IMG/VR virus record: IMGVR_UViG_3300025853_000146
Span: 1 to 48,580 of that record
Strand: one strand, 5' to 3'
DNA: 48,580 nucleotides
From: a virus
This document shows positions 750 to 31,634 of the stretch, piece after piece; positions within the stretch are counted from its first letter, which is position 1, and every line of letters starts with the position of its first letter. The translations under genes and the position numbers were made by a program. The notes below the pieces were generated by a model that saw nothing but the letters and a program-made list of their open reading frames with translations, made no database searches and was not told the origin of the DNA.

Positions 750-3746
750 ATGGGAAAGATTAGAATTTTTAACGGAAACAATTCCGTCTACATCAGCGAT
801 AGGGCTTATCAGCCAGGATCGCTAACAGCTTCAAACAGAGGTGATGATGTAACAATCGTAAAGAACACAAACAACAAAAGGATTGTTAATGAAATTAGTT
901 ATGACCTGATTGTAGATAAAGATGGAAACGCATGGGGAACCGACGGTCCGTCTACAGTAACGGCTTTAAACAACTATATAGGGGCTACAAACCCTGACGG
1001 TATCATCAAGTCCACTGACAAGATCACAAGCTTGTCGGGAGTCACGGCATCTGACTTTACGCAGAAGCCAGGTCGTATTGTTTTCGTGGGGGACACTGAC
1101 GGTTCGTTAAAAACTTCTGACGAACTCGTTTTATTAGAAGTCGGTGGTCTCAATGTAGGTAGTGGTCTCAATGTAGATGGTGGTCTTTATTTTGTGGGTG
1201 ATAAGACAATAGGGTCAACTGGAACATCAGGCACCATTACAATAGACCCAGCTACGGCAATCAACTTTTTTGGGGAGTACAGCTTCCCTACTACAGACGG
1301 TTCAAGCGGACAGGTACTTACCACTAACGGATCAGGTACGCTTTCGTTTACTACTGGTGGTGGAAGTTCCCCTTGGACAACCTCTGGTAGCGACATCTAC
1401 TACACTACAGGAAATGTAGGAGTGGGGACTACTACCCCTCAAGCGAAGTTAGATATTGACGGTGGCGCAAACGGCCATGTAATATTTCGAAACTCAGGTA
1501 CTGCTGGTGGCAACGGAATAAGACTTGTTAGGTCTTCAGCTAGCGACTGGTCTGGTGTTAACTGGTACGATAATTCTGGTATCACCTGGGCATTTGGCGA
1601 AAACAGTAGCGGTTTTGGCTTGTTTGAAGACGGAGCGGCTGCACAAACTCGGCTAATAGTAAAATCAGGCGGAAACGTAGGTATTGGGACTACTACCCCT
1701 GCTCAGCCGTTGGACGTTGTGGGCAATATACAATCCTCAGCGTATTTATATTTCGGAGGTAGCACTCACTCCTTGAAGATGGTTACCAACAACGGTATCC
1801 ACATAGGAAAATCTACTGGAACTAGTTTAGCCAGTGCGGGCGTAGTTATTGGAGACGGTGCTGGAAGGTTTAATAGTGGCACCGACAGTGTAGCGATTGG
1901 CTCCAACGCAGGATATAGGGGCTCGAATTCAAGCAATCAAATTGCTGTTGGTGAAAGTTCAAACAGCGGTGCTGCATCATACGTTAAGACTTATTCTATA
2001 GGAGTTGGCTCCAATTCTAACTATAACGGAGGTGTCTACACGACTTCGGTCGGAGGTAACACGGGAGCGAACAGCCCTTCATCTTACACTAACTCAGCCT
2101 TTTTTGGGTATCAAGCTGGTCACAGCGGGGGCAATAACAGTGTGTTCGTAGGGTATGAGGCGGGTAAGAGTGATGGAGTTCAGCTTGTAAACGACACAGT
2201 AGCAATAGGACATCAAGCATTAACAGCTTTAACTACAGGTGCTGGTAACACAGCAGTAGGTTATCAAGCCTCTGATGCTATGACTGTATCAGCCTACACT
2301 ACTTCTTTAGGTTATCAAGCATTGAGTTCTGTAAATGCTACGGGCACCACTGCTGATGGCTCTACTGCTGTTGGATATCAAGCATTAACTGCGCTGACTA
2401 CTGGGGAACAAAATACAGCAATTGGTTATCAGGCAGGAGACTCTATAACAACGGCATCTTACAACACGCTACTTGGTTATCAAGCAGGACGGGGACATAC
2501 TAATCTTTTTGGGCTAGTAGCTATTGGTTCTGCTGCTGGTAAAGGAGGGGCTTCATACTCTACGTTTGTAGGGCATATGGCTGGAGCGGGTACATCTGGA
2601 AATAATAATACAGCTATTGGCTTCCAAGCGTTAAACCTTACTACTGGAGGTGGCACAGGAAATGTCGCTGTTGGCAGAAAAGCTCTTGGGGGAACTGGAC
2701 AACTTACTCAAAACGTCGCCATTGGTGAACTTGCAGGTGCGGGGTATGGAAATAAATCTAACAATGTTTTTATAGGGTATTCTGCTGGCTCATCTTTAAC
2801 TACTGGTAGCAGCAATGTTCTAATCGGATATACGGCTGGAAACACCCTTACCACAGAATCCAACAAGCTCTACATAGAGAACAGCAACTCCACCACCCCA
2901 CTGATTTACGGTGAGTTCGATAATGATATCCTGAGAGTAAACGGTACGCTGCAAGTAAACGACCCGTCATCCACTGGTTACGCTTTCCCAACCGCTACAG
3001 GTACGCTTGGTCAAGTGCTTGAAGTTGATGCTAACGGAGACTTAATCTTCGCTACACCATCTCCAGGCGGTGGTACGCCTTTGGCATCTGCCGATCAAAC
3101 ATTAGCGGGTGACCGATTAATTGACACGAACGGGTACAATCTTGAAATTGAACTTGATCCTACAGGAACGGCAGACACGTTTACTATTCACGATGGTACA
3201 CACGACCTCTTCCAAGTAGATACAGGGACTACTGGAACTATCTTCAGTGTAAACGATGTGTCTGGATTACCTAAGCTTACTGTAGACGACTCTGACGGGG
3301 TTACTATCGACAAGTTCAAAGAGGTCAAGTACGAAAAACCATCGAATACAGACTTCTCTTACCAAGGGGATGTAGTATATTTCGGTGCTACTACGGGTAT
3401 GACTCAAGGCGATCTCTACTACTTTAACTCTTCAGGTAACTGGGCTCAAGCAGACGCAGATGCAGTCTCTAGCTCAGGGAGTGTGCTCCTCGCTATTGCG
3501 CTGGGGACAGCTTCAGACACGAACGGAATGCTGCTGAAGGGTACATTCACTATGGCTGCTGGAGCTATCGACGGTACAGAAGCTACGGGTGACGAGCTGT
3601 ACGTAAGCACTACGGCTGGACACGTAACAAGCGATGTGTCTGCATACACAACGGGAGACGTTGTGCGTGTAGTTGGCTACTGTTTAGACGGCACAAACGG
3701 GCAGATTTGGTTTAATCCTTCTAACGACTGGATAGAGCTCTCGTAA
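750..3746 (+). CDS. Long tail fibre / adhesin-like protein with GYQA repeats
   Basis: This 998-aa protein is low in Cys and rich in Gly, Thr and Ser. Residues about 370-720 hold many degenerate repeats of the type TTGxxNTAVGYQAL and NVFIGYSAG, resembling the left-handed beta-roll repeats of trimeric YadA-like adhesin heads and of many Bacteroidota and marine phage fibres. Earlier, two GNVGVGTTTP-type motifs (around residues 223 and 309) look like collar or knob repeats. The last 130 residues form a separate compact domain ending in FNPSNDWIELS, seen by eye as alternating strands. It is likely a receptor-binding fibre. The repeats are also visible as recurring DNA around ggttatcaagca. The stop codon overlaps the next start as TAATG. 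Confidence 0.8.
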   Translation: MGKIRIFNGNNSVYISDRAYQPGSLTASNRGDDVTIVKNTNNKRIVNEISYDLIVDKDGNAWGTDGPSTVTALNNYIGATNPDGIIKSTDKITSLSGVTASDFTQKPGRIVFVGDTDGSLKTSDELVLLEVGGLNVGSGLNVDGGLYFVGDKTIGSTGTSGTITIDPATAINFFGEYSFPTTDGSSGQVLTTNGSGTLSFTTGGGSSPWTTSGSDIYYTTGNVGVGTTTPQAKLDIDGGANGHVIFRNSGTAGGNGIRLVRSSASDWSGVNWYDNSGITWAFGENSSGFGLFEDGAAAQTRLIVKSGGNVGIGTTTPAQPLDVVGNIQSSAYLYFGGSTHSLKMVTNNGIHIGKSTGTSLASAGVVIGDGAGRFNSGTDSVAIGSNAGYRGSNSSNQIAVGESSNSGAASYVKTYSIGVGSNSNYNGGVYTTSVGGNTGANSPSSYTNSAFFGYQAGHSGGNNSVFVGYEAGKSDGVQLVNDTVAIGHQALTALTTGAGNTAVGYQASDAMTVSAYTTSLGYQALSSVNATGTTADGSTAVGYQALTALTTGEQNTAIGYQAGDSITTASYNTLLGYQAGRGHTNLFGLVAIGSAAGKGGASYSTFVGHMAGAGTSGNNNTAIGFQALNLTTGGGTGNVAVGRKALGGTGQLTQNVAIGELAGAGYGNKSNNVFIGYSAGSSLTTGSSNVLIGYTAGNTLTTESNKLYIENSNSTTPLIYGEFDNDILRVNGTLQVNDPSSTGYAFPTATGTLGQVLEVDANGDLIFATPSPGGGTPLASADQTLAGDRLIDTNGYNLEIELDPTGTADTFTIHDGTHDLFQVDTGTTGTIFSVNDVSGLPKLTVDDSDGVTIDKFKEVKYEKPSNTDFSYQGDVVYFGATTGMTQGDLYYFNSSGNWAQADADAVSSSGSVLLAIALGTASDTNGMLLKGTFTMAAGAIDGTEATGDELYVSTTAGHVTSDVSAYTTGDVVRVVGYCLDGTNGQIWFNPSNDWIELS

Positions 3747-4570
3747 TGGCTATTGATAAGGTAACGGGAACTTCTTGGGCTGATTTATCCAAGATAAGCG
3801 ATGTGGCAAAGGCAGACATTGCAAAAGTTGCTGGGCAAGATGCACCGTCTGGGTCTGGTATAGTCACTTCAAGTCTCATTCACCACTATGATGCTTCTTT
3901 GTCTGGTGGAGCAACATCTACACAACTTGTTGACCAAGGTTCAGGGGCTTACAACTTAACATATCGCAATGGCGTAGCACAACCAACGGGCGGTAGCGTG
4001 TGGGTTGCATTTGATGGAACGAACGACTACACAGGTACTGTAGATTCAACTCCCAGCACTATGGTTCCTGTTGACTTGTCTGATTCTTACACTTGGTCAG
4101 CATTCTATGACCACGATTCAAAAAATGGAACGCAGTGTCTTTTTGGGTCTTTTGAGCGATTTAACGATTACACATTTGTTGGTTTGTACATAAGTTACAG
4201 CACTACAAACTCTAACTACAGTATAACGGCTGCGGCACGTCACAATAACAGTCATGTTCAATACTGGAGGGCTAGCGGTTTGACAGCAAATCCAGCGCAA
4301 GCTACTTTTACTCATGATGGAAGCAGGACAGAGGCAGGTGGAACCATATACATCAATGGGGTAGCGCAGACCACTTCGTTAATCATCAATACAGGAAGTG
4401 GCAGTTCCGTAGTAGATTATTCTTTCTCAACTTTTGGTCAGGGAGCAGATGACAACCAGCTTTATTATTATGACGGCTTGATAGGTGAATGCCTTATGTA
4501 CGACGCAGAACTGACTGCTGCACAGGTTCTCCAAAACTACAACGCAAGTAAAACAAAACACGGATTATAA
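3746..4570 (+). CDS. LamG/concanavalin A-like lectin protein, fibre-associated
   Basis: A 274-aa protein with the usual features of a LamG (concanavalin A-like) jelly-roll domain: an N-terminal SSLIHHYDAS stretch, an FDGTNDY strand, an internal INGVAQTT hairpin, and a C-terminal YDGLIGECLMYD followed by LTAAQVLQNYNA. The last two are typical of the final strand and helix of this fold in Bacteroidota surface proteins. It lies in the fibre cluster with TAATG junctions on both sides, so translational coupling is likely. Role: probably glycan or receptor binding at the tail tip (inferred). Confidence 0.75.
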   Translation: MAIDKVTGTSWADLSKISDVAKADIAKVAGQDAPSGSGIVTSSLIHHYDASLSGGATSTQLVDQGSGAYNLTYRNGVAQPTGGSVWVAFDGTNDYTGTVDSTPSTMVPVDLSDSYTWSAFYDHDSKNGTQCLFGSFERFNDYTFVGLYISYSTTNSNYSITAAARHNNSHVQYWRASGLTANPAQATFTHDGSRTEAGGTIYINGVAQTTSLIINTGSGSSVVDYSFSTFGQGADDNQLYYYDGLIGECLMYDAELTAAQVLQNYNASKTKHGL

Positions 4571-4824
4571 TGCATTTCGAAAACAGACATTACGTAGTGT
4601 TCGACCTCACAGAGGTGGACACAATCGACTTCTCAGAGGTCATGGAAACATCGGCAGATACGCTGAGAAAGAACTTAGCTAACACGCAGAGCTTTGTGAA
4701 ATATGAAGGGGACCAACCACCTTCGGTAGTTGCTCTTGCAACAAAGTCACAAGAGTACTCTCACGCAGAGATTCTTGCGTTGCTCGCTGGGACTGAATGG
4801 ACTGACCCTGACGCAGAGATCTAA
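4570..4824 (+). CDS. Small protein between lectin genes, unknown function
   Basis: An 84-aa acidic protein (starts MHFENRHYVVFDL, ends WTDPDAEI). The start ATG overlaps the preceding stop as TAATG and its own stop lies directly before the next ATG, so it is part of the lectin operon. No motif was recognised. Its place between fibre and lectin genes makes a fibre-assembly or chaperone-like role possible, but nothing in the sequence shows this. Confidence 0.65.
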   Translation: MHFENRHYVVFDLTEVDTIDFSEVMETSADTLRKNLANTQSFVKYEGDQPPSVVALATKSQEYSHAEILALLAGTEWTDPDAEI

Positions 4825-5529
4825 ATGGGTGGGTTTGCAAATAACGCACCTATCGTAACTGATGGGTTAGTATTCTATGTAGACGCAGGGAACAGTAAAT
4901 CGTATCCTGGTAGTGGCGGTACGTGGAGTGATTTAGTGGGAGGTAATGATGGTACATTTTCTGCGACCCCCACCACAGGCTCTACTAATGGAGGTAGTAT
5001 TGTGTTTGATGGGGTAGATGATATGTGTACCTTCCCTGGAGCTGCGTCGCCTGTAACTAATGCCATTTCCGTCTGTTTGTGGTATAACGGACACCCAACA
5101 GTAAATAATCAAAGTTTTACTTTTAGGTCGGAACACAGTAGTGATAGTAATCATCGAGAATTCAGCGCTCACCTACCCTGGAATAATGGAAATATTTATT
5201 GGGACTGTGGAAATAATGGAGGCAATACCTATGACAGAATATTTAAAGAGTCCTCTAATGTACACAGAGGATGGAATTATTGGGTTTTCTGGAAAGATTG
5301 CACCTTGTCTTCTACCAATAGAATGAGAATTTATTTAAATGGGTCGCTTTGGCATCAAGGATTGGGAGGCGCTAGAACTATAGGAGCTGCTACGGCATTT
5401 ACAATAGGAGGGTGGAGTGGAGGTAATTATGATAACGGAACATTTTCTAATCTTTCTATTTACAACAGGGCGCTTACTGAAGACGAAATCCTCCAAAACT
5501 ACAACGCCCTTAAAAACAGATTCGTATGA
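4825..5529 (+). CDS. LamG-like lectin protein, copy A of a tandem pair
   Basis: A 234-aa LamG-type protein. Its N-terminal 55 residues (IVTDGLVFYVDAG, GGTWSDLVGGNDGTFSATPTT) and C-terminal 20 residues (LSIYNRALTEDEILQNYNAL) are nearly the same as in the next gene, while the central part differs strongly. This is a tandem duplication with a diverged ligand-binding face. The stop overlaps the next start as ATGA. Probably a receptor-recognition or adhesion subunit (inferred from fold and place). Confidence 0.75.
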   Translation: MGGFANNAPIVTDGLVFYVDAGNSKSYPGSGGTWSDLVGGNDGTFSATPTTGSTNGGSIVFDGVDDMCTFPGAASPVTNAISVCLWYNGHPTVNNQSFTFRSEHSSDSNHREFSAHLPWNNGNIYWDCGNNGGNTYDRIFKESSNVHRGWNYWVFWKDCTLSSTNRMRIYLNGSLWHQGLGGARTIGAATAFTIGGWSGGNYDNGTFSNLSIYNRALTEDEILQNYNALKNRFV

Positions 5530-6218
5530 GCTACAGCTACGGTAAAAGCATAGTGACGGATGGGTTGGTGTTCTACGTGGATGCAGCTAACGATAATAGC
5601 TATCCAGGGACGGGGACTACTTGGTCTGATTTGGTTGGGGGTAATGATGGGACATTTTCTGCAACCCCCACTACAGACTCTGCTAATGGGGGAAGTATTG
5701 TATTTGACGGAACTGACGATACTGTAAGCTTTACTGAATTTTCTACGTCAGGTCTTTCTAATTTTACGTTAGACGTTTGGGTTTATATTGATAATGATCC
5801 ATCAGACGGTACGGTTATAGGGCAGTGGGGTGGTTCAACCTCTAGGTCCTTTTTGATTTGGTGGGACGTTGGAGTTACCGCAAACTTTAGATTTGTTGTG
5901 CAAAATACATCCAGTCAAAACACAATTACCTCTGAGTCAAATGACAACGCAAACAATAACGATTGGAATCATGTGGTGGCAACATTTGACAGCGCTTCAG
6001 AAATTAAACTATATGTAAATAACGTGCTGACAGACACAGTGTCACACGCTTCTACGCCTTTCACATTAAAAACCACCAGCGGCTTCGAGATAGGGGATGA
6101 TTCTAGTAATTTTCGTTGGCTTGACGGAAAGGTGTCTTCCGCAAAGATTTATAACAGAGTACTTTCTGCCTCCGAAGTAACTCAAAACTACAACGCATTA
6201 AAGAATAGATTTATTTAA
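5526..6218 (+). CDS. LamG-like lectin protein, copy B of a tandem pair
   Basis: A 230-aa paralogue of the gene just upstream. The shared start reads IVTDGLVFYVDAAND, TWSDLVGGNDGTFSATPTT, GGSIVFDGTDD, and the shared end reads IYNRVLSASEVTQNYNALKNRFI. The middle (residues about 75-190) has its own sequence, including DWNHVVATFD and an IKLYVNNVLTD hairpin typical of LamG domains. The last codons run into a promoter-like TATCTTTG box. Function: likely carbohydrate or receptor binding in the tail apparatus. Confidence 0.75.
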   Translation: MSYSYGKSIVTDGLVFYVDAANDNSYPGTGTTWSDLVGGNDGTFSATPTTDSANGGSIVFDGTDDTVSFTEFSTSGLSNFTLDVWVYIDNDPSDGTVIGQWGGSTSRSFLIWWDVGVTANFRFVVQNTSSQNTITSESNDNANNNDWNHVVATFDSASEIKLYVNNVLTDTVSHASTPFTLKTTSGFEIGDDSSNFRWLDGKVSSAKIYNRVLSASEVTQNYNALKNRFI

Positions 6219-6585: not shown

Positions 6586-6900
6586 ATGGCTGAAGATGTA
6601 AAGAAGAAACTTAAGCGGTTTGGGCTCTCTGGACTCAACAAACCTAAGCGATCCCCTAAGGGGAAGAAGTCGCATATCGTAGCGGTACGAGACGGCGGTA
6701 AAGTAAAGATTATTCGCTTCGGAGAGAGAGGGGCTAGCACGGCTGGTAAGCCGAAGGCTGGGGAGAGCGCACGCATGAAAGCGAAGCGTAAGTCATTCAA
6801 GGCCAGACACAGGAAGAACATCGCCAAGGGTAAGACCAGCGCAGCGTGGTGGGCCAATAAAATCAAGTGGATCGTAATACTTATGCCATGCTTCTTTTAG
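6586..6900 (+). CDS. Small basic phage protein (C-terminus altered by the HNH gene)
   Basis: A 104-aa Lys/Arg-rich protein. The start at 6586 (MAEDVKKKLKRFG) was chosen because a promoter box lies 4 nt upstream; the longer frame from 6532 would begin inside the terminator. The core (KKSHIVAVRDGGKVKIIRFGERG, then SFKARHRKNIAKGKTSAAWWANKIKW) is of a kind common as small basic proteins in marine phages. After WANKIKW, where I would expect such a protein to end, ten extra residues (IVILMPCFF) run into the start of the HNH gene. This suggests the downstream gene arrived by insertion and changed the 3' end. Function unknown; possibly a virion or DNA-associated protein. Confidence 0.7.
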   Translation: MAEDVKKKLKRFGLSGLNKPKRSPKGKKSHIVAVRDGGKVKIIRFGERGASTAGKPKAGESARMKAKRKSFKARHRKNIAKGKTSAAWWANKIKWIVILMPCFF

Positions 6901-7400
6901 ATCTTCCAGAACAAGTTCATCTTGGTGAAGATGGAAGGTGGTATAAGCCTTGTTCTTCTTGCGGTGAAGAGCAATCTTATTTAAGAAGGAATTACGCCAT
7001 TTTTTCTTTTATGGAGGGTAAGCTTTGCAAAAAATGCAGCAATTCAACCCCAGAAAATTGCTCTCATAAGGGGTGGATTAAAGACGTACTTAGATACTCT
7101 TTTGCCAATAAGTTTAAGTCTAGCGCAAAATTAAGAAATATAGAGTGGGCTCTCAGCTTTGATTATTTGGCTGACCTTTTAGTTGATCAGGGTTTCAAAT
7201 GCGCTTTAACTGGATGGGACATAAAAGCAAAAGACGTGTCAAACAACACAGCATCATTAGACAGAATAGATTCATCATTAGGGTATGTAGAAGGCAATGT
7301 TCAGTGGGTTCACAAAATGGTAAATATGTGTAAGCAGGGATACAGTCAGGAGGAATTCTTATCTATGTGTAAGGCGGTGAATGAAAACATCAAACCATGA
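6888..7400 (+). CDS. HNH endonuclease, homing-type
   Basis: A 170-aa protein from ATG 6888 (a GTG at 6867 would add seven residues). Two CxxC zinc-binding pairs lie near the N-terminus (CSSCGEEQ and CKKCSNST). The C-terminal part holds the HNH signature of phage homing nucleases: CALTGWD, then ASLDRIDSSLGYVEGNVQWVH (the D-R-I-D and N-V-Q-W-V motifs), then KMVNMCKQG. The enzyme would cut DNA and promote its own spread. It overlaps the end of the preceding gene, is more A+T-rich than its neighbours, and shares a 4-nt ATGA with the next gene. It probably entered a pre-existing block of small basic genes. Confidence 0.85.
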   Translation: MLLLDLPEQVHLGEDGRWYKPCSSCGEEQSYLRRNYAIFSFMEGKLCKKCSNSTPENCSHKGWIKDVLRYSFANKFKSSAKLRNIEWALSFDYLADLLVDQGFKCALTGWDIKAKDVSNNTASLDRIDSSLGYVEGNVQWVHKMVNMCKQGYSQEEFLSMCKAVNENIKP

Positions 7401-7582: not shown

Positions 7583-7770
7583 AAGCAAAGAAGAAATCAA
7601 AGTCTCGCGTAAACGAAGCTGGTAACTACACGAAGCCAGGACTGCGTAAGCGTATCTTCAACAGAATCAAGGCGGGCTCTAAAGGCGGGAAGCCTGGTCA
7701 GTGGTCTGCACGAAAGGCACAGATGCTTGCTGTAGCGTACAAGAAAGCGGGGGGAGGATACACAAGCTGA
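7579..7770 (+). CDS. Small, very basic protein of unknown function
   Basis: A 63-aa protein rich in Lys, Arg and Gly (VNEAGNYTKPGLRKR, then IKAGSKGGKPGQWSARKAQML, then YKKAGGGYTS). This arrangement is a recurrent small-protein family in phages of marine bacteria, usually annotated as a domain of unknown function. The charge suggests nucleic acid contact. It starts in an ATGA overlap and its stop shares one base with the next ATG (TGATG). Confidence 0.75.
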   Translation: MKAKKKSKSRVNEAGNYTKPGLRKRIFNRIKAGSKGGKPGQWSARKAQMLAVAYKKAGGGYTS

Positions 7771-8009
7771 TGGCGTTAGCTAAATCACAGAGAAGTCTCA
7801 AGAAGTGGACTAAGCAGAAGTGGAGAACCTCTGACGGTAAGCCGTCCAAGGGGAAGAAGCGCTATTTGCCAGACGCTGCATGGAAAGCCCTTTCTCCTTC
7901 AGAGAAGGCAGCCACGAATAGAGCGAAAGCCAAGGGTAACAAGAAGGGCAAGCAGTTTGTAAAGCAGCCTAAAGGCATTGCGAAGAAAGTCGCAAAGTAC
8001 AGGTCTTAA
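7770..8009 (+). CDS. Small, very basic protein of unknown function
   Basis: A 79-aa protein starting MALAKSQRSLKKWTKQKWRT at ATG 7770, which overlaps the preceding TGA; the longer frame from 7701 is mostly the neighbouring gene read in another phase. It contains GKPSKGKKRYLPDAAWKALSPSEK and a Lys-rich tail (KKVAKYRS). It looks like the same kind of short conserved DUF protein as its neighbour. Probably a DNA-associated or virion component. Confidence 0.75.
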   Translation: MALAKSQRSLKKWTKQKWRTSDGKPSKGKKRYLPDAAWKALSPSEKAATNRAKAKGNKKGKQFVKQPKGIAKKVAKYRS

Positions 8010-8017
8010 GACTAGCA

Positions 8018-8530
8018 ATGAGCAGATTAGATTTTATTAGGTCTTTACATGGCCGAGAGGCTCGCCCACCTAAAGTTATTATTGGAGAAAACACTAAGGT
8101 TTGCGATACAGCGAAAATAGGAAACGACGGGTTTGGATTTGAACCTGATGAAAAAGGAGAGCTAGTGTTTTTCCCTCACTTTGGTGATGTAATTGTAGGG
8201 GACAATGTTGTCATAGGCTCTCATGTTTGTATTGATCGAGGCAACTTGCATAACACCGTTATTGAAGATGGGGTTAAAATAGACAATCTAGTTCATATTG
8301 CTCACAACGCCCACATAGGCAAAAACACCTTGATAGTAGCTGGAAGTGTAATATGCGGCTCTGTTAAAATAGGAAGAAATTGCTTTATTGGGGCTAACTC
8401 TACTATAAAACAACATTTAAAAATAGGGGATAATTCTGTCGTTGGCATGGGTTCGGTGGTTACCAAGAATATTCCCAGCGGGGAAGTTTGGGCTGGAAAT
8501 CCAGCCAGATTCTTAAAATCAAACAAATGA
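8018..8530 (+). CDS. LpxD-like left-handed beta-helix acyltransferase
   Basis: A 170-aa hexapeptide-repeat enzyme. The order of motifs matches the catalytic core of LpxD, the UDP-3-O-acyl-glucosamine N-acyltransferase of lipid A synthesis: IGNDGFGFEPD, VVIGSHVCIDRGNL, KIDNLVHIAHNAHIG, KIGRNCFIGAN, then GSVVTKNIPSGEVWAGNPA. His96 in IAHN corresponds to the catalytic His of LpxD. The N-terminal uridine-binding domain and the C-terminal helices of full LpxD (about 340 aa) are missing, so a soluble sugar or sugar-nucleotide acceptor is more likely than lipid A itself; other sugar N- or O-acyltransferases share this fold. The gene overlaps the PIG-L-like gene by ATGA. Acyl transfer to an amino sugar freed by that deacetylase is an inference. 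Confidence 0.8.
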   Translation: MSRLDFIRSLHGREARPPKVIIGENTKVCDTAKIGNDGFGFEPDEKGELVFFPHFGDVIVGDNVVIGSHVCIDRGNLHNTVIEDGVKIDNLVHIAHNAHIGKNTLIVAGSVICGSVKIGRNCFIGANSTIKQHLKIGDNSVVGMGSVVTKNIPSGEVWAGNPARFLKSNK

Positions 8531-9165
8531 CTCTAGACAATTTTAAGACGGTTTTGGTGTTGGGTCCACATACCGACGATGGAGAGATAGGAGCTGGGGC
8601 TACTATTTCTAGGCTTTGTAGGGAAGGTAAAAAAGTTTACTATGTTGCTTTTTCTATTTGTGAGGAGTCTGTGCCTCCAGGATTTGATAAAACCGTATTG
8701 TCGAAAGAAATACTGAGGGCTGGATCCAGGTTGGGTATTCCTAAAGCCAACATTTCTACACTTAGATACAAAGTGAGAAAATTCACGTCAAGCAGGCAGG
8801 ATATTCTTGAGGATATGATTAAGATTAAAAACACTATCGATCCCGATCTGGTATTACTGCCCTGTTCTTATGATATCCATCAGGATCACAAAGTGATATT
8901 CGAAGAAGGCACTAGAGCCTTCAAAAAAACAAGCATACTGGGGTATGAAATCCCATGGAACAACCTGGAAATTAACAACAGGTGTTTTATTGAGGTTTTT
9001 CCTGAAGATTTAAAAAACAAAGTTGACTCTATTTTAGAGTACAAATCACAGTCTTTTAGAAACTACATAAACGAAGATTATATCAGGTCTTTACTCGTCA
9101 TTAGAGGCAAGCAAATCGACTTTGATTTAGCCGAATCATTTGAGGTCATCAGGTTGATATTTTGA
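8527..9165 (+). CDS. PIG-L/LmbE-family sugar N-deacetylase
   Basis: A 212-aa protein. The start at 8527 was chosen because it overlaps the preceding stop as ATGA; the longer frame from 8488 lies within the upstream gene. It has the two zinc motifs of the PIG-L superfamily: PHTDDGE at residues 14-20 and DIHQDHK at 117-123. Family members remove N-acetyl groups from GlcNAc-type sugars in GPI, mycothiol, bacillithiol and antibiotic synthesis. The pair of a deacetylase and an LpxD-like acyltransferase parallels the LpxC-LpxD step order with a different deacetylase fold. The target (host surface glycan, virion glycan or other) cannot be read from sequence. Both genes look more A+T-rich than the neighbouring capsid genes, which hints at transfer. 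Confidence 0.85.
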   Translation: MTLDNFKTVLVLGPHTDDGEIGAGATISRLCREGKKVYYVAFSICEESVPPGFDKTVLSKEILRAGSRLGIPKANISTLRYKVRKFTSSRQDILEDMIKIKNTIDPDLVLLPCSYDIHQDHKVIFEEGTRAFKKTSILGYEIPWNNLEINNRCFIEVFPEDLKNKVDSILEYKSQSFRNYINEDYIRSLLVIRGKQIDFDLAESFEVIRLIF

Positions 9166-9192
9166 TACAAGAAGCTCTAAATAAATACTTTA

Positions 9193-9200
9193 TATATTTG
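9193..9200 (+). promoter_or_regulatory. -7 box upstream of the head gene operon
   Basis: TATATTTG lies 18 nt before the scaffold start codon. No TTTG -33 box sits at 19-21 nt. It probably starts transcription of the scaffold and capsid genes. Confidence 0.45.
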
Positions 9201-9218: not shown

Positions 9219-10313
9219 ATGGAAGAACAAAACACACAAACTATTGAGCAGCAGCCAGTGACTGAGGAAACAAACTCCCCTTCATTTAGCTTCGTTTCTG
9301 ACGAAGAGGTAGCTGCTATGCAACAACCTCAAGAGCCTGCCGCCCCAGCTGTGCAAGAACAGCCTACGGTGGAAGACACTCCAGAGGTACAACAAGAAAC
9401 TGTAACTGAGCCTCAGCCTGATCAGCCAGAAGCTCAGCCACAATACGCACCAGAACAAATCGAGGGTGCGGTGTTCGAATTCCTTAGCGAAAGGCTTGGG
9501 AGAAACATCGCTTCGTTTGATGACCTTCAGGCGCAACAGCAGGAGCAAAGAGAGCTCGACGAACGTATTTCTGTGATCGCGGATTTTGTCGAAAAGACTG
9601 GCCGCGACCCAAGAGATTGGTTTATCTATCAGTCCATGAACCCTTCCGAAATGGATGACGTGACTGCAATCAGAACCAAGATGGCTTCTGATTACCCAAA
9701 CCTCTCGCAAGAAGAAGTCGGTATGTTGGTCTCTAGCAAGTATAAGCTCGACCCAGATCTGCACTCAGAAGACGAGGTGAAGCTTTCGCAACTGCAAATG
9801 AAGATCGACGCGGAGAACGCACGTAAAGGTATCGACGAGCTGCGAACGCAGTATCAGGCACCACAACGTCAAGCATCCGATGAGTCGGAATCATTAATTG
9901 ATGACGCTTGGGTTTCGAACATGCGCAGAGAGCTAGACGCTATGGAAGGGATTGAATTCAATCTCGGAAATGAGAAGACGTTTACTTTCGGTATGGACAA
10001 CAACTACAAGAGTCAGCTCGCTGAGAAAAACACTCGCCTTGACGAGTTCTTCGATCCTTACGTGAACGAAGATGGGAGCTGGGATTATGACAAGCTGAAT
10101 ATGCACAGAGCCGTCATTGACAACGTAGAGAGCATCGTACAGTCTGTTTACAGACAGGGGCTTTCTGATGGTCAGCGTGGCGTAGTGGAGAAAGCAGCTA
10201 ACATTTCTCCTCAGTCTCCAAATCAAGGAAACCAAACAAACGGACCTGACCCGCTTGTTCAGCAATTAAAAGAAGCGCTTGGACAAAGCGGAGGGGGGTT
10301 CGGATTTATCTAA
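9219..10313 (+). CDS. Putative capsid scaffolding protein
   Basis: A 364-aa acidic protein. The first 85 residues are Gln/Glu/Pro-rich and disordered-looking (QQPQEPAAPAVQEQ, PQPDQPEAQPQ). The middle is predicted helical (QAQQQEQRELDERISVIADF, LQMKIDAENARKGIDELRTQ) and the end is a short helix plus Gly-rich tail (LKEALGQSGGGFGFI). This composition, the size, and the position 21 nt before the major capsid gene match scaffolding proteins of podoviruses (T7 gp9-like place). It would guide procapsid assembly and leave or be cleaved on maturation. No protease or enzyme motif is seen. Confidence 0.75.
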   Translation: MEEQNTQTIEQQPVTEETNSPSFSFVSDEEVAAMQQPQEPAAPAVQEQPTVEDTPEVQQETVTEPQPDQPEAQPQYAPEQIEGAVFEFLSERLGRNIASFDDLQAQQQEQRELDERISVIADFVEKTGRDPRDWFIYQSMNPSEMDDVTAIRTKMASDYPNLSQEEVGMLVSSKYKLDPDLHSEDEVKLSQLQMKIDAENARKGIDELRTQYQAPQRQASDESESLIDDAWVSNMRRELDAMEGIEFNLGNEKTFTFGMDNNYKSQLAEKNTRLDEFFDPYVNEDGSWDYDKLNMHRAVIDNVESIVQSVYRQGLSDGQRGVVEKAANISPQSPNQGNQTNGPDPLVQQLKEALGQSGGGFGFI

Positions 10314-13394: not shown

Positions 13395-14167
13395 TGGCTA
13401 GGAATACAGTATCAGTAAATCAAGTAGTAAACGACTTCGTTATCACGCTGGGCCATGACGACTACGTGAATGACGTAGAAGACACTGTGTTGCGAGCTTT
13501 TGCGTTGAGGGGCATTCGTGAGATGGGGTTCGACCTCTTGAACAGAATAAAGTCCATCAAGCTTCCTGTTGACTCAACAAACAACACCGTTGCTCTTCCT
13601 TCTGATTTCGTCAAGGCTGTTAAGATTGGTGTGATCGGTACAGACAACCTTATCTATGTATTCGGAGAAAACAAGAATATCAACTACTCCATGAAGGAGG
13701 ATAGTAATGGTAATCTCGTGGACTCCAAGACCAGTAATGCTGACATCGGCGGAAATGTAGATGACGGCTTAAACAGCTATGTGTTCAGAAACTATACGTT
13801 TGCAGGCAACGACGGACAGCTTTACGGCTATGGCGGTGGACGCTACGCTGGTCAGTACAGACTTAACCTCGACCAGAACAGAATCGAAGTAGACTCAAGG
13901 TACAGTGAAGTGGTGCTTGAGTATGTAGCCGACGAAGCCAGGTCTACTAATCCGTCTATCGATATTCAGGCCGAAGAAGCGCTTAGATCGTACATCTACC
14001 ACAAGCTAGTGGAGCGCAAGTCTTCTGTGCCTGCCAACGAAAAGGCTCGTGCAAGACGAGAGTACTACAACGAACTCAGAAAGGCCAACGCAAGACTGAA
14101 ATCATTCTCTAAAGAAGAAGCTCTTAAGACTATTCGTAAGAATTACAAGCAAAGCCCTAAAGGATAA
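13394..14167 (+). CDS. Putative tail adaptor / tubular protein A-like
   Basis: A 257-aa protein with features of the gp4/gp11-like adaptor group: an N-terminal helix bundle (VNDVEDTVLRAFALRGIREMGFDLLNRIKSIKL), a strand with the LPSDFVKAVKIGV motif, a Gly/Tyr-rich loop region (GNDGQLYGYGGGRYAGQY), and a basic C-terminal helix (RARREYYNELRKANARLKSF). It would form a ring between the portal-proximal connector and the nozzle. The upstream and downstream junctions are both TAATG, so the three genes are probably co-translated. Confidence 0.75.
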   Translation: MARNTVSVNQVVNDFVITLGHDDYVNDVEDTVLRAFALRGIREMGFDLLNRIKSIKLPVDSTNNTVALPSDFVKAVKIGVIGTDNLIYVFGENKNINYSMKEDSNGNLVDSKTSNADIGGNVDDGLNSYVFRNYTFAGNDGQLYGYGGGRYAGQYRLNLDQNRIEVDSRYSEVVLEYVADEARSTNPSIDIQAEEALRSYIYHKLVERKSSVPANEKARARREYYNELRKANARLKSFSKEEALKTIRKNYKQSPKG

Positions 14168-17100
14168 TGGCGATAGACAAGATTATACCATTTACCCTGA
14201 ACAAATCTTCGGATGAAAGAGCTGTAAAATCAACTGAGATGACCGACGCATTGAATGTGACGGTATCTACAGATGAAGACGGCAATGGGTTTGTTCTTAA
14301 GACGGCGAAAGGCAATGTACCTATTAGCGGTACTCTTCCCGCCGCACACAGGCAACGAAAAGTAATAGGGAGCGTAACTGATTTAGATACAGACTACGTT
14401 TACTTTTTCGTGGCTCATCCAGGTACTGGCGGAAGCGCAATTCTGCGATGTAACTACAATAGAGAGTCACCCGAATATGAAGAAGTATACAGCGAGGTGA
14501 CTAACATACTTGACCTGCAAGTAGACAGTTATGTAGACGCAGACATCTTAAGGGTTGATACCAATCAAGCAGGAACCGTTCAGACGATTATCTACTTTAC
14601 TGACGGGGTAAATGAGCCTCGAAAGATTAACGTAGATAGGGCTTTGAGCGGAATCTTAGACAGCTACTCGAATGACGACATAAGAGAATTCTTTAGCGTT
14701 TGTAAGACAGCCCCAAGAGAAGAGATAGTTGTTTACAGCGCTACAGATGACCACACAGACAAAAACAGCATATACGGGAAAAGCTTTTCTTTCGCTTATC
14801 AGTATGTTTACAAGGACGGCGAGGAAAGTGCTTTATCAAACCACTCTAATCCAGTGGTTCCAGACTATCTGTTAAATACAGTTTACGACGACGGGAAACC
14901 TATCCATTCAGAAAACGTAATCAAAGTTGAAGTCCCTCATGGCGGACAAGAGGTAGATAGCGTAAACATCATCTTCAGAGATTTAGAGTCTGGGGTGTTT
15001 TACAAAGCTGGGAACTTCTCTTTTTCTAGCAACAAACCTGCATCTCAGGTTGATGGTAGAGATTTCTGGGATTATGACGAAGGGGGAACTTCTCCAGCCG
15101 TAGGTGTATTTCATTTTTACAACTCACAGGCTTATCCAGCAATGGCTGAGATCGACGCTTTTAAGATGTTCGACAACGTACCACAAAAGTCAAACGCTCA
15201 AACCATATCTAACGGTAGGCTGTTCTATGGTGGTTACGAAGAAGGTTATCCTAATCATTCTACAAACGCTAACTTTTTAGTAGAGTATAGTGATGTAAAG
15301 ACTCTTGATTACAGGATTAACGTAACTAATAAAAACCTTTCCGCCCCTGGGGATTATGATATTATTTTAGACTTTTCTAACTGTCCTCAAACGTTATACA
15401 AGGGTGAGTCACTTAGCCTTGATTTCTCTATAGATACTAACGGGCAATGGTCCGTCTACCTTGACGATCCAATTGTGGGTACTGCCACACCGCAACCCAT
15501 AGACTATCTTCTTAATTTAATAGGCGGTTCTGATCCAGACTTAGACCTAGGCGGCACTTCAGATACGGCGTTGAGATTCAACTCGAAGGTATTCAAAATA
15601 AAGACCTCTTACGAGGTTACCCAGTCAAGTATAAGCACACCGCAGGCTGTTGTGTCTATGTTGAATAACATTAGGTTTAATTCGGGGCAACAAAGTTACG
15701 GACTGCGATTCGATTACAACGACTCCAATCCGCCAGTTTCTGGAGATGAAACACCTGCTGTTTCTCCAGTTTCTGACTCAATTAAAATTAAAAAAGCTAC
15801 TATTTCATTAGGGTTTACAGTAGGTAGTTATCACACTCCGTCTTCATCTATTCCGATTAGGCCATATGTGACAAATGTAGTAGTCGGACAAGACCTTGGT
15901 GATGTTCTGTGGTATAAATCGAGCCTGGGCCAATACGTAGATTACGATTTAGCCTCTCAATCGTACAACCTTAACAACTCTGGAGGGGTTGACGACACTA
16001 TGGCTGATTACGTCGATACTATATCTAACTCAAATGACGATTACGAATTAGGCAACTCAAATAAAAGTCTTTTCTCTGGCGACTTAGAGAGAAGTAAAAC
16101 GTGGAAGGCTGGGGTAAATCATGATTTTGGTATTGTCTACTATGACGAAAGAGGTAGAAACGGATTTGTAAACGAACTCGGTTCTGTTTACGTCAAGCAT
16201 ATCAGCGAGCGAGAGAAGAGGGGCAGGGCAGAGATTAAGCTCAATTTGAAAGGCTTAACACACCCTAGTTGGGCTACAGACTTTGGTATTGTTTACGGAG
16301 GAAATCAAGACATCCTTGACTTTAAACAATACTCTGTTGCGGACGGTTTCTCTTCTTACTATTATGACGCTAGCTACAGCGAAACACAAGGAGAGGAGCA
16401 CGACAACAGAATATACGTCTCCTTAAAATCGTGGTCTGGATCCCGTGTCTCATACGTAGGCGACAAAGGGGTTGACTACAACTACAAGTTTAAGCAAGGC
16501 GACGTACTCAGAATTCTTAAGTACAAGGATGATTCTGGAAACTATGTTTACCCAGACAATCTTGAATTTAAGGTTGTTGACTTTAGGCATTTGAGGGAGG
16601 ACATTGCAGATGAGACCGCTGAGTCCTTGAGGGCGGAAATCAGAGAAATTGAAGAGGGCGAAAGGTCGGGGTTTGGTGATTTTGTTATGAATGCTTTAAA
16701 CAGGATAACAGGAGGGGAAGAAGATCCTAATTCGTTTATAGGGGGGTCAGAGGATCAATCAGAAGCAATTAACGAGCTCATTGAAGAACTTAGGATTAAC
16801 GAATATAAACGGCTTAGAACGCATCCTATCTCCCTTAGAAACCCGTTGATTAGGGGTAACTACGCACCGTGTAAGGGTCACTTCTTGGTGCTAGAAGACC
16901 CAGGTCACGCTGGGTGGGGGGCTGCGGACAGAGCTACAAACAGCAATGGCGGTGTAGCCCACGTTGTTCCTGGGGATGAATATGACTCTGGTTCGTCTCC
17001 AGGCCACACTGCGGATAGTGCGCACTTCCACCCAATTATCAACTGGTCTAGACACGTAGTTGTAGAGATATACACCCCTAAAATAAAGGCACCATCGAAA

Positions 17101-18828
17101 AAGGTATATAGAGAGATCAACAAGACATTTTCAGTTGATGAAATCCCAACCAGCGGAAATAGTATAGTAAACCTTGGGGGTGGAGACGTGTGGTACAAAA
17201 ACACACCGATAAGAGTTTCGGAGTATGATGCAACTCATATCATTGATGACACCCACAGCAACCTGGACATAGATGCTAGATTTAAAGCCAGGTTCCTAAA
17301 TGGCTACGACTATGAAAATCAATTCATAGAAAGCCAAGACGCCTCTCATTACTACAGCTCTCCAGCTAATTTCTTTGGCAGAAGCATAGCGGTAAACAAA
17401 GATGCAGCAACCAACAAGAGAAGACACTCTATTACATATAGCGACAGATTTAATAGTGATTCGCCTGTTCTTAGGCTGTCTGATTTTAACCTCAGTCTTG
17501 CAAACTACATGGATTTGTCGTTTAGGTATGGGCTAATTGACAAACTTATTGATGGAGGAGGACATATATTCTGCCTTCAGGATTCTAAGGTTTGCAAAAT
17601 ACCCATTGGTAAGAATGTGGTGAACTATACCGACGGTAGTCAAAACGTGACCATTTCTAAAAACGTAATGGGAGAGCCTGGATACTACATGGGGGATTAC
17701 GGTTCTTCTGGCAATAAAGGGTCTGTGGTTAGCGCTGAAGGAAAGGTATTCTTCTTGGATGTCAATGCAAGAAAGGTGTTTAGGCTGTCGAACGACGGGC
17801 TTACAGACATCTCCTCCAAGACAATAGACAGCTTCTTGGTTGGGGAGCTGGACAAGGTTCAGAGGTCTTTGTATGACGCTGGTGGTACAGCTCCAGACGG
17901 CGTGTTTCCAAGAATTGTTGGGGGCTGGGACCCTGACTACGGGCAATATCTCTTGACGGTGGGTGATTATTCTTATTACTCAGATAAGGCTTCAGGCTTA
18001 ATAAATGTTGATGGCTTTACCTTGGCTTATCAGGACTCCCTTAAGTCATGGGTATCTCAGTACAGCTTTGTTCCAGATTGCTATGGTAGAGTAGGAGATA
18101 ACTTGATTTCGGCAAAGCATGCCGTCAATACAAGTGACATTCTTTGGGCGCATGCTGATGAACTAATCAGGGAGGGAGTTATCATAGACACGATTCAGAG
18201 AGCTAACTATTACGGTACTCAAGAAGACAGCATAATCGAAGTAGTTGCTAACAAAGAACCATCAATGGTTAAGGTATTCGAGGCCATAGGTCTTGAAACT
18301 ACTTCTGACAACTTCGACGTTAGCTTCAGCACAAGCGATCAATCCTCCTCTCTGACTAAAGACGACTTTAACGAGAAGGAAAGAGGTAAGTACGCTGAGA
18401 TACCTAGGGACACAACTGTGAGTGCTGACAATGCAAATCAGATTGTTCTCGGTAAGGTCTTGTCTAACAGTGCTGGTGATGAAATCACGTTTGCGTCCAA
18501 CATCAACTTCCAGCCTATACCGAAAGGGGCTTCTGTGTATGTCAATGGGACCAACACATCAAAGACTGTAAACAAGGTCTCTGGTAGGAATAAGCTAAAG
18601 CTGAGTGCTGCCCACACGGTTGCCGCTAACGACGTTGTAAAAATTGTTCTAGATGCCGCCACGAATGGAGACCCACTTCGTGATTACTTTTGTAAGGTCA
18701 AGCTTACCAATCAGAATGATGCGGACACTAATGGCAAGTGGGAGCTTTACGGCATTAATTTAAACACGCAGAGGTCGAATCTCGGTCAGGAGGTTAGATT
18801 ACCTAAAAAAGTCAATAAGAAGAAATAA
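14167..18828 (+). CDS. Tail nozzle / stabilisation protein (very large)
   Basis: A 1553-aa, beta-rich protein rich in Asp, Asn, Ser and Tyr with no coiled coil, as in podovirus nozzle (tubular protein B / P22 gp10-like) proteins but about twice the usual length. Recognisable segments are the opening IIPFTLNKSSDERAVKSTEM, TIIYFTDGVNEPRKINVDRA near residue 140, RLFYGGYEEGYPN near 355, FGIVYYDERGRNGFVNELGSVYV near 655, and a late KSWVSQYSFVPDCYGRVG near 1295. The last two resemble beta-propeller-type blades common in these proteins. Residues about 810-880 hold a charged helical insert (ETAESLRAEIREIEEGERSG). It probably forms the tail tube end and fibre platform. Confidence 0.75.
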   Translation: MAIDKIIPFTLNKSSDERAVKSTEMTDALNVTVSTDEDGNGFVLKTAKGNVPISGTLPAAHRQRKVIGSVTDLDTDYVYFFVAHPGTGGSAILRCNYNRESPEYEEVYSEVTNILDLQVDSYVDADILRVDTNQAGTVQTIIYFTDGVNEPRKINVDRALSGILDSYSNDDIREFFSVCKTAPREEIVVYSATDDHTDKNSIYGKSFSFAYQYVYKDGEESALSNHSNPVVPDYLLNTVYDDGKPIHSENVIKVEVPHGGQEVDSVNIIFRDLESGVFYKAGNFSFSSNKPASQVDGRDFWDYDEGGTSPAVGVFHFYNSQAYPAMAEIDAFKMFDNVPQKSNAQTISNGRLFYGGYEEGYPNHSTNANFLVEYSDVKTLDYRINVTNKNLSAPGDYDIILDFSNCPQTLYKGESLSLDFSIDTNGQWSVYLDDPIVGTATPQPIDYLLNLIGGSDPDLDLGGTSDTALRFNSKVFKIKTSYEVTQSSISTPQAVVSMLNNIRFNSGQQSYGLRFDYNDSNPPVSGDETPAVSPVSDSIKIKKATISLGFTVGSYHTPSSSIPIRPYVTNVVVGQDLGDVLWYKSSLGQYVDYDLASQSYNLNNSGGVDDTMADYVDTISNSNDDYELGNSNKSLFSGDLERSKTWKAGVNHDFGIVYYDERGRNGFVNELGSVYVKHISEREKRGRAEIKLNLKGLTHPSWATDFGIVYGGNQDILDFKQYSVADGFSSYYYDASYSETQGEEHDNRIYVSLKSWSGSRVSYVGDKGVDYNYKFKQGDVLRILKYKDDSGNYVYPDNLEFKVVDFRHLREDIADETAESLRAEIREIEEGERSGFGDFVMNALNRITGGEEDPNSFIGGSEDQSEAINELIEELRINEYKRLRTHPISLRNPLIRGNYAPCKGHFLVLEDPGHAGWGAADRATNSNGGVAHVVPGDEYDSGSSPGHTADSAHFHPIINWSRHVVVEIYTPKIKAPSKKVYREINKTFSVDEIPTSGNSIVNLGGGDVWYKNTPIRVSEYDATHIIDDTHSNLDIDARFKARFLNGYDYENQFIESQDASHYYSSPANFFGRSIAVNKDAATNKRRHSITYSDRFNSDSPVLRLSDFNLSLANYMDLSFRYGLIDKLIDGGGHIFCLQDSKVCKIPIGKNVVNYTDGSQNVTISKNVMGEPGYYMGDYGSSGNKGSVVSAEGKVFFLDVNARKVFRLSNDGLTDISSKTIDSFLVGELDKVQRSLYDAGGTAPDGVFPRIVGGWDPDYGQYLLTVGDYSYYSDKASGLINVDGFTLAYQDSLKSWVSQYSFVPDCYGRVGDNLISAKHAVNTSDILWAHADELIREGVIIDTIQRANYYGTQEDSIIEVVANKEPSMVKVFEAIGLETTSDNFDVSFSTSDQSSSLTKDDFNEKERGKYAEIPRDTTVSADNANQIVLGKVLSNSAGDEITFASNINFQPIPKGASVYVNGTNTSKTVNKVSGRNKLKLSAAHTVAANDVVKIVLDAATNGDPLRDYFCKVKLTNQNDADTNGKWELYGINLNTQRSNLGQEVRLPKKVNKKK

Positions 18829-30301: not shown

Positions 30302-30507
30302 TGGACAACCTGAGTCACTTCGAGTTTTTAATGCTGGCGATTACGCTCGTAGGTGGCTGGGTAAAGTTTCACGCGGATTACAATAAGCTCTCTGCTAGGG
30401 TAGACGCCCTAGAGAACGACAACACAGAGTTCAAAGAGGATGTCAAGCAGTTGCTTAAGGACATCCAGGAGATCAAGCTGCTCTTAGCGAAGAATCAAAT
30501 GGCATGA
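30298..30507 (+). CDS. Small membrane protein with coiled coil, lysis module
   Basis: A 69-aa protein with one membrane helix near the N-terminus (FLMLAITLVGGWVKFH, residues 9-24) followed by a coiled coil (LSARVDALENDNTEFKEDVKQLLKDIQEIKLLL). A membrane anchor plus coiled coil is the build of i-spanin-like or holin-partner proteins. It lies between the holin and protease genes with 4-nt overlaps on both sides. Role in lysis is inferred from place and build. Confidence 0.75.
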   Translation: MMDNLSHFEFLMLAITLVGGWVKFHADYNKLSARVDALENDNTEFKEDVKQLLKDIQEIKLLLAKNQMA

Positions 30508-31634
30508 GGTTTGCCGCTCTAGCACTATGCCTGCTGTCACAGATTATGGTTGCGGGCCAGGATAGCTGTGCAGTCTTCGATGTACCTACCCCAGCGGTAA
30601 GAATGATGGGGTACAATCCAGACCCCCCATCTTGGAAGAACGTAAACTACGTAGTACACGTACACTACACAGACAGCTTTCCTTATGAGTATAGCCTATT
30701 GGGCGATGCTATCATATGGGACGCACACGAGCACCTGAACGAGGAGTTCGAGGAGGCAATGTTCACTTTCGACCTAGTTGCTATAGAGTACCACAACCTA
30801 GATGAGGTAGAAGGTATGGAGCCAACCCTTGAGCTTTACAATACCTGTGTTCCTTACAGCTACTACGGATGGAGTACAACCGAAGACTACCTAGAGAATA
30901 TCGTATGGGACAGAGACCTATACATGAACGTCCATGTATTTCCTCAGTTCTGTGCTGGCATCCTGGGCTTTGCTTGGACCGCACAGGCTACTACTCCATT
31001 TGACGGGGTGTGGGTTAGGACTAATGTATTCGGGCGTATTGGTGACCACCTTTGGCAAGACAGAGACGAGAACAAGACGTTGATTCACGAGGTGGGCCAC
31101 TATCTTAGCTTGCATCACGTATTTAGAAACGTAGACTACTGTGGTGAAGACCTAGGTCCGTGCGAAGAGACAGGCGATTATGTATGCGACACCCCACCAA
31201 CCAAGACCAACTGGAGCTGCGAGAACCCTATATGCCCTCCTGGATTGTATGACTACACGCCTAACAACCATATGGACTACTACGTAGATTCATGCAGAAC
31301 AAATTTCACTGAGGGGCAGATAGAGCGTATGCATGCTGTGCTTCCTATTACTCGGCCAGGCATTGGTGCTGGCACGTATTGTGCTGGGGACCTTGACGGA
31401 GACTTAGTGGTTGGATTGGAAGACTTGCTCATAATGCTTTCACACATGCAAGAGCTGGACTGGCAGGAAGGTGACCTCAATGGCGATGGAATCTTCAACA
31501 TCTATGACCTACAGATGGTTTTAGCTAACTGGGGTAACGAATGCTTCGGGGCTGAGTTAGACCCGTTTTATAGAGAAGAACAGCTTACCTTACCCAAAAA
31601 AGAAAGGGGCCGAAGCCCCTTCCCGTTTAGGTAG
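30504..31634 (+). CDS. Secreted M43-type (cytophagalysin-like) metalloprotease with dockerin-like repeats
   Basis: A 376-aa protein with a clear signal peptide (MRFAALALCLLSQIMVAGQ). The catalytic site HEVGHYLSLHHVF has H195, E196, H199 and H205; Ser202 replaces the usual Gly of the metzincin motif HExxHxxGxxH. Downstream Cys-rich segments (CGEDLGPCEETGDYVCDTPP) are typical of the M43 family. Near the C-terminus are two EF-hand/dockerin-like repeats (GDLDGDLVVGLEDLLIMLSHM and GDLNGDGIFNIYDLQMVLANW), like those next to sorting signals in Flavobacteriia secreted enzymes. It lies where an endolysin would be expected, ATGA-coupled to the membrane protein. It may attack envelope or surface proteins at release. 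A leftward terminator lies inside its last codons. Confidence 0.85.
   Translation: MRFAALALCLLSQIMVAGQDSCAVFDVPTPAVRMMGYNPDPPSWKNVNYVVHVHYTDSFPYEYSLLGDAIIWDAHEHLNEEFEEAMFTFDLVAIEYHNLDEVEGMEPTLELYNTCVPYSYYGWSTTEDYLENIVWDRDLYMNVHVFPQFCAGILGFAWTAQATTPFDGVWVRTNVFGRIGDHLWQDRDENKTLIHEVGHYLSLHHVFRNVDYCGEDLGPCEETGDYVCDTPPTKTNWSCENPICPPGLYDYTPNNHMDYYVDSCRTNFTEGQIERMHAVLPITRPGIGAGTYCAGDLDGDLVVGLEDLLIMLSHMQELDWQEGDLNGDGIFNIYDLQMVLANWGNECFGAELDPFYREEQLTLPKKERGRSPFPFR
31595..31621 (-). terminator. Terminator of the leftward replication operon, inside the protease gene
   Basis: On the - strand a 7-bp stem AAGGGGC / GCCCCTT with a TTCG tetraloop (31611-31614) is followed by TTTCTTTTTT. The T-run lies on the - strand only, so it stops leftward transcription. 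It overlaps the final codons of the + strand protease gene, so the two transcription units converge here. Confidence 0.85.

Follow-up and report, generated by a model that had tools for sequence, protein, structure and literature searches.

The window analysed here, a 48,580-base virus record from a marine phage with flavobacterial-phage kinship, contains two overlapping genes for an LpxD-type N-acyltransferase and a PIG-L-family de-N-acetylase. We propose that the pair constitutes a two-step N-acyl exchange module, made late in infection, that alters a surface glycan of the infected cell; we assign this reading a probability of roughly 55%. The two genes represent a single recent insertion between the end of one gene and the promoter element of the next, and relatives of both recur side by side in other phages and in bacterial surface-sugar clusters.

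The gene pair and its insertion site

The coordinates of the pair, its active-site motifs and its flanks are listed in Table 1. Both reading frames are intact, as the initial annotation had claimed for positions 8018–9165. The longest open reading frame of the deacetylase starts with a TTG codon at position 8488, upstream of the ATG start. The stop/start overlap of the two genes is identical in three viruses, namely the window phage and the viral contigs L002 and L006.

Table 1. Features of the gene pair and its surroundings in the window
Feature	Position	Strand	Evidence or remark
Small basic protein gene	7770–8009	+	Directly upstream of the pair, left flank of the insertion; kept in relatives
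Insertion holding the pair, ~1.17 kb	8010–9178	.	Versus empty-site relatives L066, L069, L072, L089 and L106
LpxD-type left-handed beta-helix (hexapeptide) N-acyltransferase, 170 aa	8018–8530	+	Profiles, LpxD structures; without N-terminal uridine-binding domain and C-terminal ACP helix
Catalytic segment D89...H96, within IDNLVHIAHN	8282–8305	+	Equivalent to Asp232 and His239 of E. coli/Salmonella LpxD
C-terminal GNPAR motif	8495–8509	+	Replaces the ACP-binding helix of LpxD
ATGA stop/start overlap, 4 bp, acyltransferase/PIG-L	8527–8530	+	Translational coupling; same 4-bp overlap in L002 and L006
PIG-L/LmbE-family Zn-dependent de-N-acetylase, 212 aa from ATG 8527	8527–9165	+	Profile, fold, motifs
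PIG-L motif 1, H15-T-D17-D18	8569–8580	+	Zinc ligands and catalytic Asp; invariant in 36 sequences
PIG-L motif 2, H118-Q-D120-H121	8878–8889	+	Invariant in 36 sequences
TATATTTG, Bacteroidota-type -7 promoter-like element (TAnnTTTG) of the scaffold-like gene	9193–9200	+	Retained 3' of the insertion
Scaffold-like gene	9219–10313	+	Right flank of the insertion; precedes the major capsid gene

In the five empty-site relatives, the gene for the small basic protein is followed by the scaffold-like gene after 37–67 bp. At the sequence level, the stop codon of the basic gene adjoins the TATATTTG promoter-like element in L066 and L106. Elements of this type are found in 17 of 67 relatives, compared with a background of 3% per 90 nt. 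No promoter dedicated to the pair was identified in the ~1.17 kb insert. The position among structural genes suggests that the pair would be expressed late.

The GC content of the two genes is 0.38–0.40, versus 0.49 for the flanking genes. Their codon usage shows a distance of 1.15 against 0.90 ± 0.18 for the null, a difference that is not significant, and the foreign origin of the pair therefore rests on GC content, the empty sites and the tree described below. By its capsid gene, the virus lies close to Flavobacterium elemo, Cellulophaga and Maribacter phages, the hosts of these capsid relatives being Flavobacterium, Cellulophaga and Maribacter. Among the 80 best MCP-related viral loci retrieved, 79 lack the pair, and the single carrier is an identical virus.

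The initial annotation had named absence from all close relatives combined with degradation as grounds for abandoning its reading. The absence is borne out by the empty sites, yet the genes are not degraded. Comparison of the window with its homologues gives dN values of 0.10–0.26 with saturated dS for both genes, which are therefore constrained by purifying selection. A neutral or selfish passenger of no benefit to the phage would be in line with the absence of the pair from the other retrieved relatives and with an HNH endonuclease gene lying ~620 bp upstream, which is lacking in several of them; intact reading frames, strong purifying selection and the conserved overlap make such a passenger very improbable. 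The upstream gene itself (HNH/endonuclease VII-like, 6867–7400) is missing from this place in L066 and other relatives, and it is possibly a vehicle for insertions at the cassette site.

Other regions of the window hold further cargo. Three tandem Laminin_G_3 (lectin-like) proteins (3746–6218) follow a tail-spike-like protein of 998 residues, and two of their genes have a common 161-bp stretch of 76% identity, which suggests duplication of receptor-binding parts. A virion protein of 1553 residues (14167–18828) has a crAss-like muzzle C-terminal domain; the phage itself is related to flavobacterial podophages. At 30504–31634, the predicted product is an M43 (pappalysin-type) zinc metalloprotease, unusual for a phage, in which a signal peptide is apparent and the tail weakly resembles a dockerin; it adjoins small membrane-protein-like ORFs, which could be lysis genes.

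Active sites and missing domains

The deacetylase matches the PIG-L family (PF02585) with 55.2 bits, above the cut-off of 28.2. Its fold is predicted with a pLDDT of 94.7, and the model matches PIG-L deacetylases with E values of about 1e-14, among them diacetylchitobiose deacetylases, BshB and other PIG-L enzymes, with a TM score of 0.82 to 4xm2. Residues His15, Asp17, Asp18, His118, Asp120 and His121, which include the zinc ligands, are unchanged across 36 homologues. As judged from these motifs, the protein is probably an active deacetylase.

The best NCBIfam match of this protein is BshB1, which might place it in a bacillithiol-type low-molecular-weight thiol pathway or another small-molecule pathway, with the adjacent LpxD-like gene incidental. 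This is the least probable of the readings considered here: the match scores 46.3 bits and fails the equivalog cut-off of 182.5, the homologues have sugar genes rather than bshA or bshC as neighbours, and the pairing is recurrent.

The acyltransferase matches the Hexapep family (PF00132) with 86.6 bits. Its best NCBIfam match is LpxD (PRK00892, 181 bits), covering positions 167–314 of the 345 in the profile, i.e. the C-terminal helix half, and it aligns with PDB chains of LpxD at E values of 1e-35 to 1e-32. Chance matches are excluded for both gene assignments, and the two families named in the initial annotation hold. The protein scores below both LpxD equivalog cut-offs (181 versus 207 for PRK00892 and 174.6 versus 242.5 for TIGR01853) and is for this reason not filed as LpxD, although it is expected to work like an LpxD core. 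The catalytic histidine is kept, as had been claimed, with His96 corresponding to His239 of LpxD. A second LpxD histidine, His276, is matched by His133, a position that is variable among relatives.

The outer domains of LpxD are missing, again in agreement with the initial annotation. The protein begins at about residue 145 of LpxD and has no match to PF04613, so the uridine-binding domain is absent. Most phage and bacterial-cluster relatives of the protein share its GNPAR/K tail. Tails of this type are typical of CoA-dependent hexapeptide acyltransferases, which is no proof of CoA use. Because the nucleotide-binding domain and the ACP helix are missing and the GNPAR tail is present, the sequence makes a short acyl-CoA a likelier donor than acyl-ACP, and a surface glycan a likelier target than lipid A.

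Structure prediction, which the initial annotation had proposed as a check, upheld the PIG-L fold of the deacetylase and not the LpxD-like fold of its partner. An AlphaFold model of the acyltransferase (17-row alignment, pLDDT 78) was discarded: a PDB search with it returned no match at E ≤ 0.001, and LpxD chains appeared only near E = 2. The LpxD assignment consequently rests on sequence.

Relatives of the pair and exchange of partners

The pair is not confined to the window phage. A search for it elsewhere, suggested in the initial annotation, shows PIG-L and LpxD-like neighbours recurring in flavobacterial T4-like phage contigs, other viral contigs and surface-sugar clusters of Burkholderiales. 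Close homologues of both genes are found in L002 and L006 in the same order and in L004 in swapped order; L003 has a PIG-L homologue without an LpxD-like gene. The acyltransferase orthologues in L002, L004 and L006 are 72–84% identical to the window protein, and the PIG-L orthologues in all four contigs 71–83%. These contigs have a GC content of 0.28–0.33. L004 encodes a T4-type clamp loader, and L006 a protein that is 50% identical to one from a Flavobacterium myophage. Contigs of this type carry sugar genes for GT2 and GT4 glycosyltransferases, Gfo/Idh proteins, a DegT aminotransferase, a hexapeptide transferase, a nucleotide-sugar dehydrogenase and a methyltransferase.

The glycan islands of the T4-like relatives are complete, with several glycosyltransferases that could decorate virion proteins, and the target of the window pair might by analogy be a glycan attached to the virion or made by the phage. 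This is unlikely, as the ORFs scanned in the window include none that is recognisable as a glycosyltransferase or sugar-nucleotide gene. For the same reason, the target is presumably made by the host, which must supply the substrate.

In the Burkholderiales loci (L029, L030, L039, L040, L043 and L045), the PIG-L gene is directly followed by one for a longer LpxD-like protein of ~290 residues or more. The WbuX amidotransferase and AglZ/HisF2 score over their cut-offs in L030, as does WbuX in L043, which identifies these clusters as being of the acetamidino-sugar type; HisH is also among their genes. All three pair-bearing Burkholderiales genomes tested have a separate LpxD-like match beside an LpxA-like one, compatible with a canonical lipid A locus, and the cluster copy is therefore a paralogue.

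That bacterial carriers of the pair retain this separate locus bears on lipid A remodelling, in which LpxC would be replaced by the PIG-L protein and LpxD by the acyltransferase. The strong LpxD sequence match and the conserved equivalents of His239 and Asp232 favour such a role. Considering also the missing uridine-binding domain and ACP-binding helix, the GNPAR tail and the scores under both LpxD cut-offs, we regard it as quite improbable.

In one case an LpxD-like protein occurs without PIG-L. In the phage sugar cluster of L063 (7995–8987), a protein of 330 residues, encoded beside a Gfo/Idh gene, is a fusion of an LpxD-like domain and a second hexapeptide domain, which is WbpD-like. The gene upstream of it appeared polysaccharide-deacetylase-like by eye and was dropped as it matched no Pfam family. 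The two enzymes might serve one diamino-sugar pathway at different positions, the LpxD-like protein acylating a 3- or 4-amino group and the PIG-L protein deacetylating a 2-acetamido group or another residue, with no sequential swap. In agreement with this, L063 has no PIG-L gene, and the neighbours in L002, L003, L006, L063 and the Burkholderiales clusters, which comprise Gfo/Idh, DegT aminotransferase and WbpD-like hexapeptide genes, point to 3-amino-sugar chemistry; the best NCBIfam match of the Gfo/Idh protein is UDP-GlcNAc 3-dehydrogenase, under the cut-off. We consider this possible and less probable than an exchange on one amine, because the window virus has no amino-sugar genes beside the pair, and because the partner exchange described next, with formyl- and sulfotransferases, is better suited to action on a freed amine.

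An LpxD-like gene is the immediate neighbour of the PIG-L clade in 13 loci, in both gene orders. In other loci its place is taken by different enzymes. A formyltransferase adjoins PIG-L in L003, WbqC in L048, L053, L060 and Vibrio phage PG28, and an ATP-grasp protein in L051, L058 and a Halobaculum plasmid; a GNAT gene lies nearby in Parabacteroides. A sulfotransferase is adjacent in L031, L033, L036, L038 and L049, and by sequence resemblance in L035. The first five of these loci come from Calditrichota, Cloacimonadota and Neomarinimicrobiota MAGs and a viral contig, and they are possibly a bacterial analogue of the heparan N-deacetylase/N-sulfotransferase.

In the PIG-L tree, the window and L002 form a group (98/94) within a clade of five members (100/99). 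The formyltransferase-bearing L003 belongs to the same clade, as sister to L006 (100/97). At least five changes are needed to explain the LpxD pairing on this tree, of which only two are forced by well-supported branches.

Several of the partner enzyme types modify free amines; WbqC is not established as one of them. Since the exchanged partners are mostly enzymes able to modify a free amine, the parsimonious shared logic of the PIG-L clade is to de-N-acetylate and then re-cap the amine. This exchange strengthens the LpxC/LpxD-like logic with an unrelated deacetylase that the initial annotation had proposed.

Among annotated phage records, a close homologue was found of neither gene, and some of the best acyltransferase matches in them are ordinary bacterial lpxD loci, from records that are mislabelled or contain a prophage. 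A genome scan returned no Bacteroidota locus; its pattern was too narrow to prove absence, as a 51% identical PIG-L homologue exists on a Parabacteroides plasmid record.

Proposed function and known systems

In the exchange that we favour, the PIG-L enzyme would remove the acetyl group from a 2-acetamido sugar in a host-made, lipid- or nucleotide-linked precursor of a surface polysaccharide or LPS. The LpxD-type enzyme would then add a different acyl group, probably a short one from acyl-CoA, to the freed amine or a neighbouring one. Inserted without a promoter at the 3' end of the structural-gene operon, the pair would be produced late. The surface glycan of the infected cell would be altered, most plausibly in an epitope recognised by the window phage or by competing phages, and the advantage may lie in blocking readsorption or superinfection.

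The conserved catalytic residues of both enzymes and the low dN/dS support this exchange, as do the glycan islands of the phage donors, with their GT2/GT4, Gfo/Idh, DegT and nucleotide-sugar dehydrogenase genes. So does the nature of the pair as an intact accessory insertion, with unbroken reading frames under purifying selection and empty sites in five relatives. Against it, an amine-modifying neighbour is not obvious for some PIG-L homologues, use of the freed amine is unproven for the WbqC, sulfotransferase and ATP-grasp partners, and the LpxD-like protein of L063 occurs without PIG-L.

A wider model can be put forward tentatively, at somewhat less than even odds. The PIG-L clade would free a surface-sugar amine, which interchangeable partners (LpxD-like, formyltransferase, sulfotransferase, WbqC, ATP-grasp ligase or GNAT) would cap differently. 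Bacteroidota phages would trade the two-gene version to re-label host glycans within one infection, the minimal LpxD core being fitted to a CoA donor and to a glycan that is not nucleotide-linked but lipid-linked or polymeric.

If the exchange holds, phages swap existing N-acyl groups of host surface polysaccharides beyond merely adding groups, and achieve a subtle change in receptor chemistry with only two genes, neither of which encodes a glycosyltransferase. From the PIG-L clade and its interchangeable partners, a genomic rule could then be drawn by which N-formyl, N-acyl, N-sulfo or aminoacyl substituents of bacterial surface sugars are predicted. The clade would also offer candidates, open to testing, for acyl-exchange steps that have been proposed for LPS cores but are still missing, as with DnpA.

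The pair resembles LpxC and LpxD of lipid A synthesis in the order of de-N-acetylation and N-acylation and in the LpxD catalytic core. In contrast, its deacetylase comes from an unrelated family, its acyltransferase lacks the uridine-binding domain and ACP helix, and the lipid A genes are not linked. Diacetylchitobiose deacetylase, BshB and MshB have the same PIG-L superfamily fold and active-site motifs, but are 13–24% identical to the phage protein in structural alignments, and the phage genomic contexts indicate a different substrate. In phage O-antigen conversion, Oac acetylases and Gtr operons add O-acetyl or glucosyl groups. These genes likewise change the host surface polysaccharide from a phage genome, whereas the present pair would exchange an existing N-acyl group.

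Phage-encoded surface-sugar modification, PIG-L in a phage sugar cluster and the idea of deacetylating and then acylating are already known. The initial annotation knew of no phage system with this exact pair; the literature searched contained no paper on it, but its components have precedents. In the Stenotrophomonas phages DLP3 and DLP5, PIG-L is likewise part of a sugar-gene cluster, with WcaG, WecE, methyltransferase and glycosyltransferase genes (PMC7326821). Unlike the window phage, DLP3 and DLP5 bring their own sugar pathway, and the published gene table has no adjacent LpxD-like gene. For Pseudomonas DnpA, deacetylation followed by acylation of the LPS core has been proposed with LpxC/LpxD as the stated parallel (PMC10579960), and the gene of this PIG-L protein (PA5002) lies beside the GNAT gene PA5003 in an LPS core cluster (PMC8005017). 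Like the phage pair, this system places PIG-L next to an acyltransferase, with re-acylation proposed to follow deacetylation. The Pseudomonas genes are chromosomal, with a GNAT partner and a role that is a proposal only, whereas in the phage the partner is LpxD-like and the two genes form a mobile unit.
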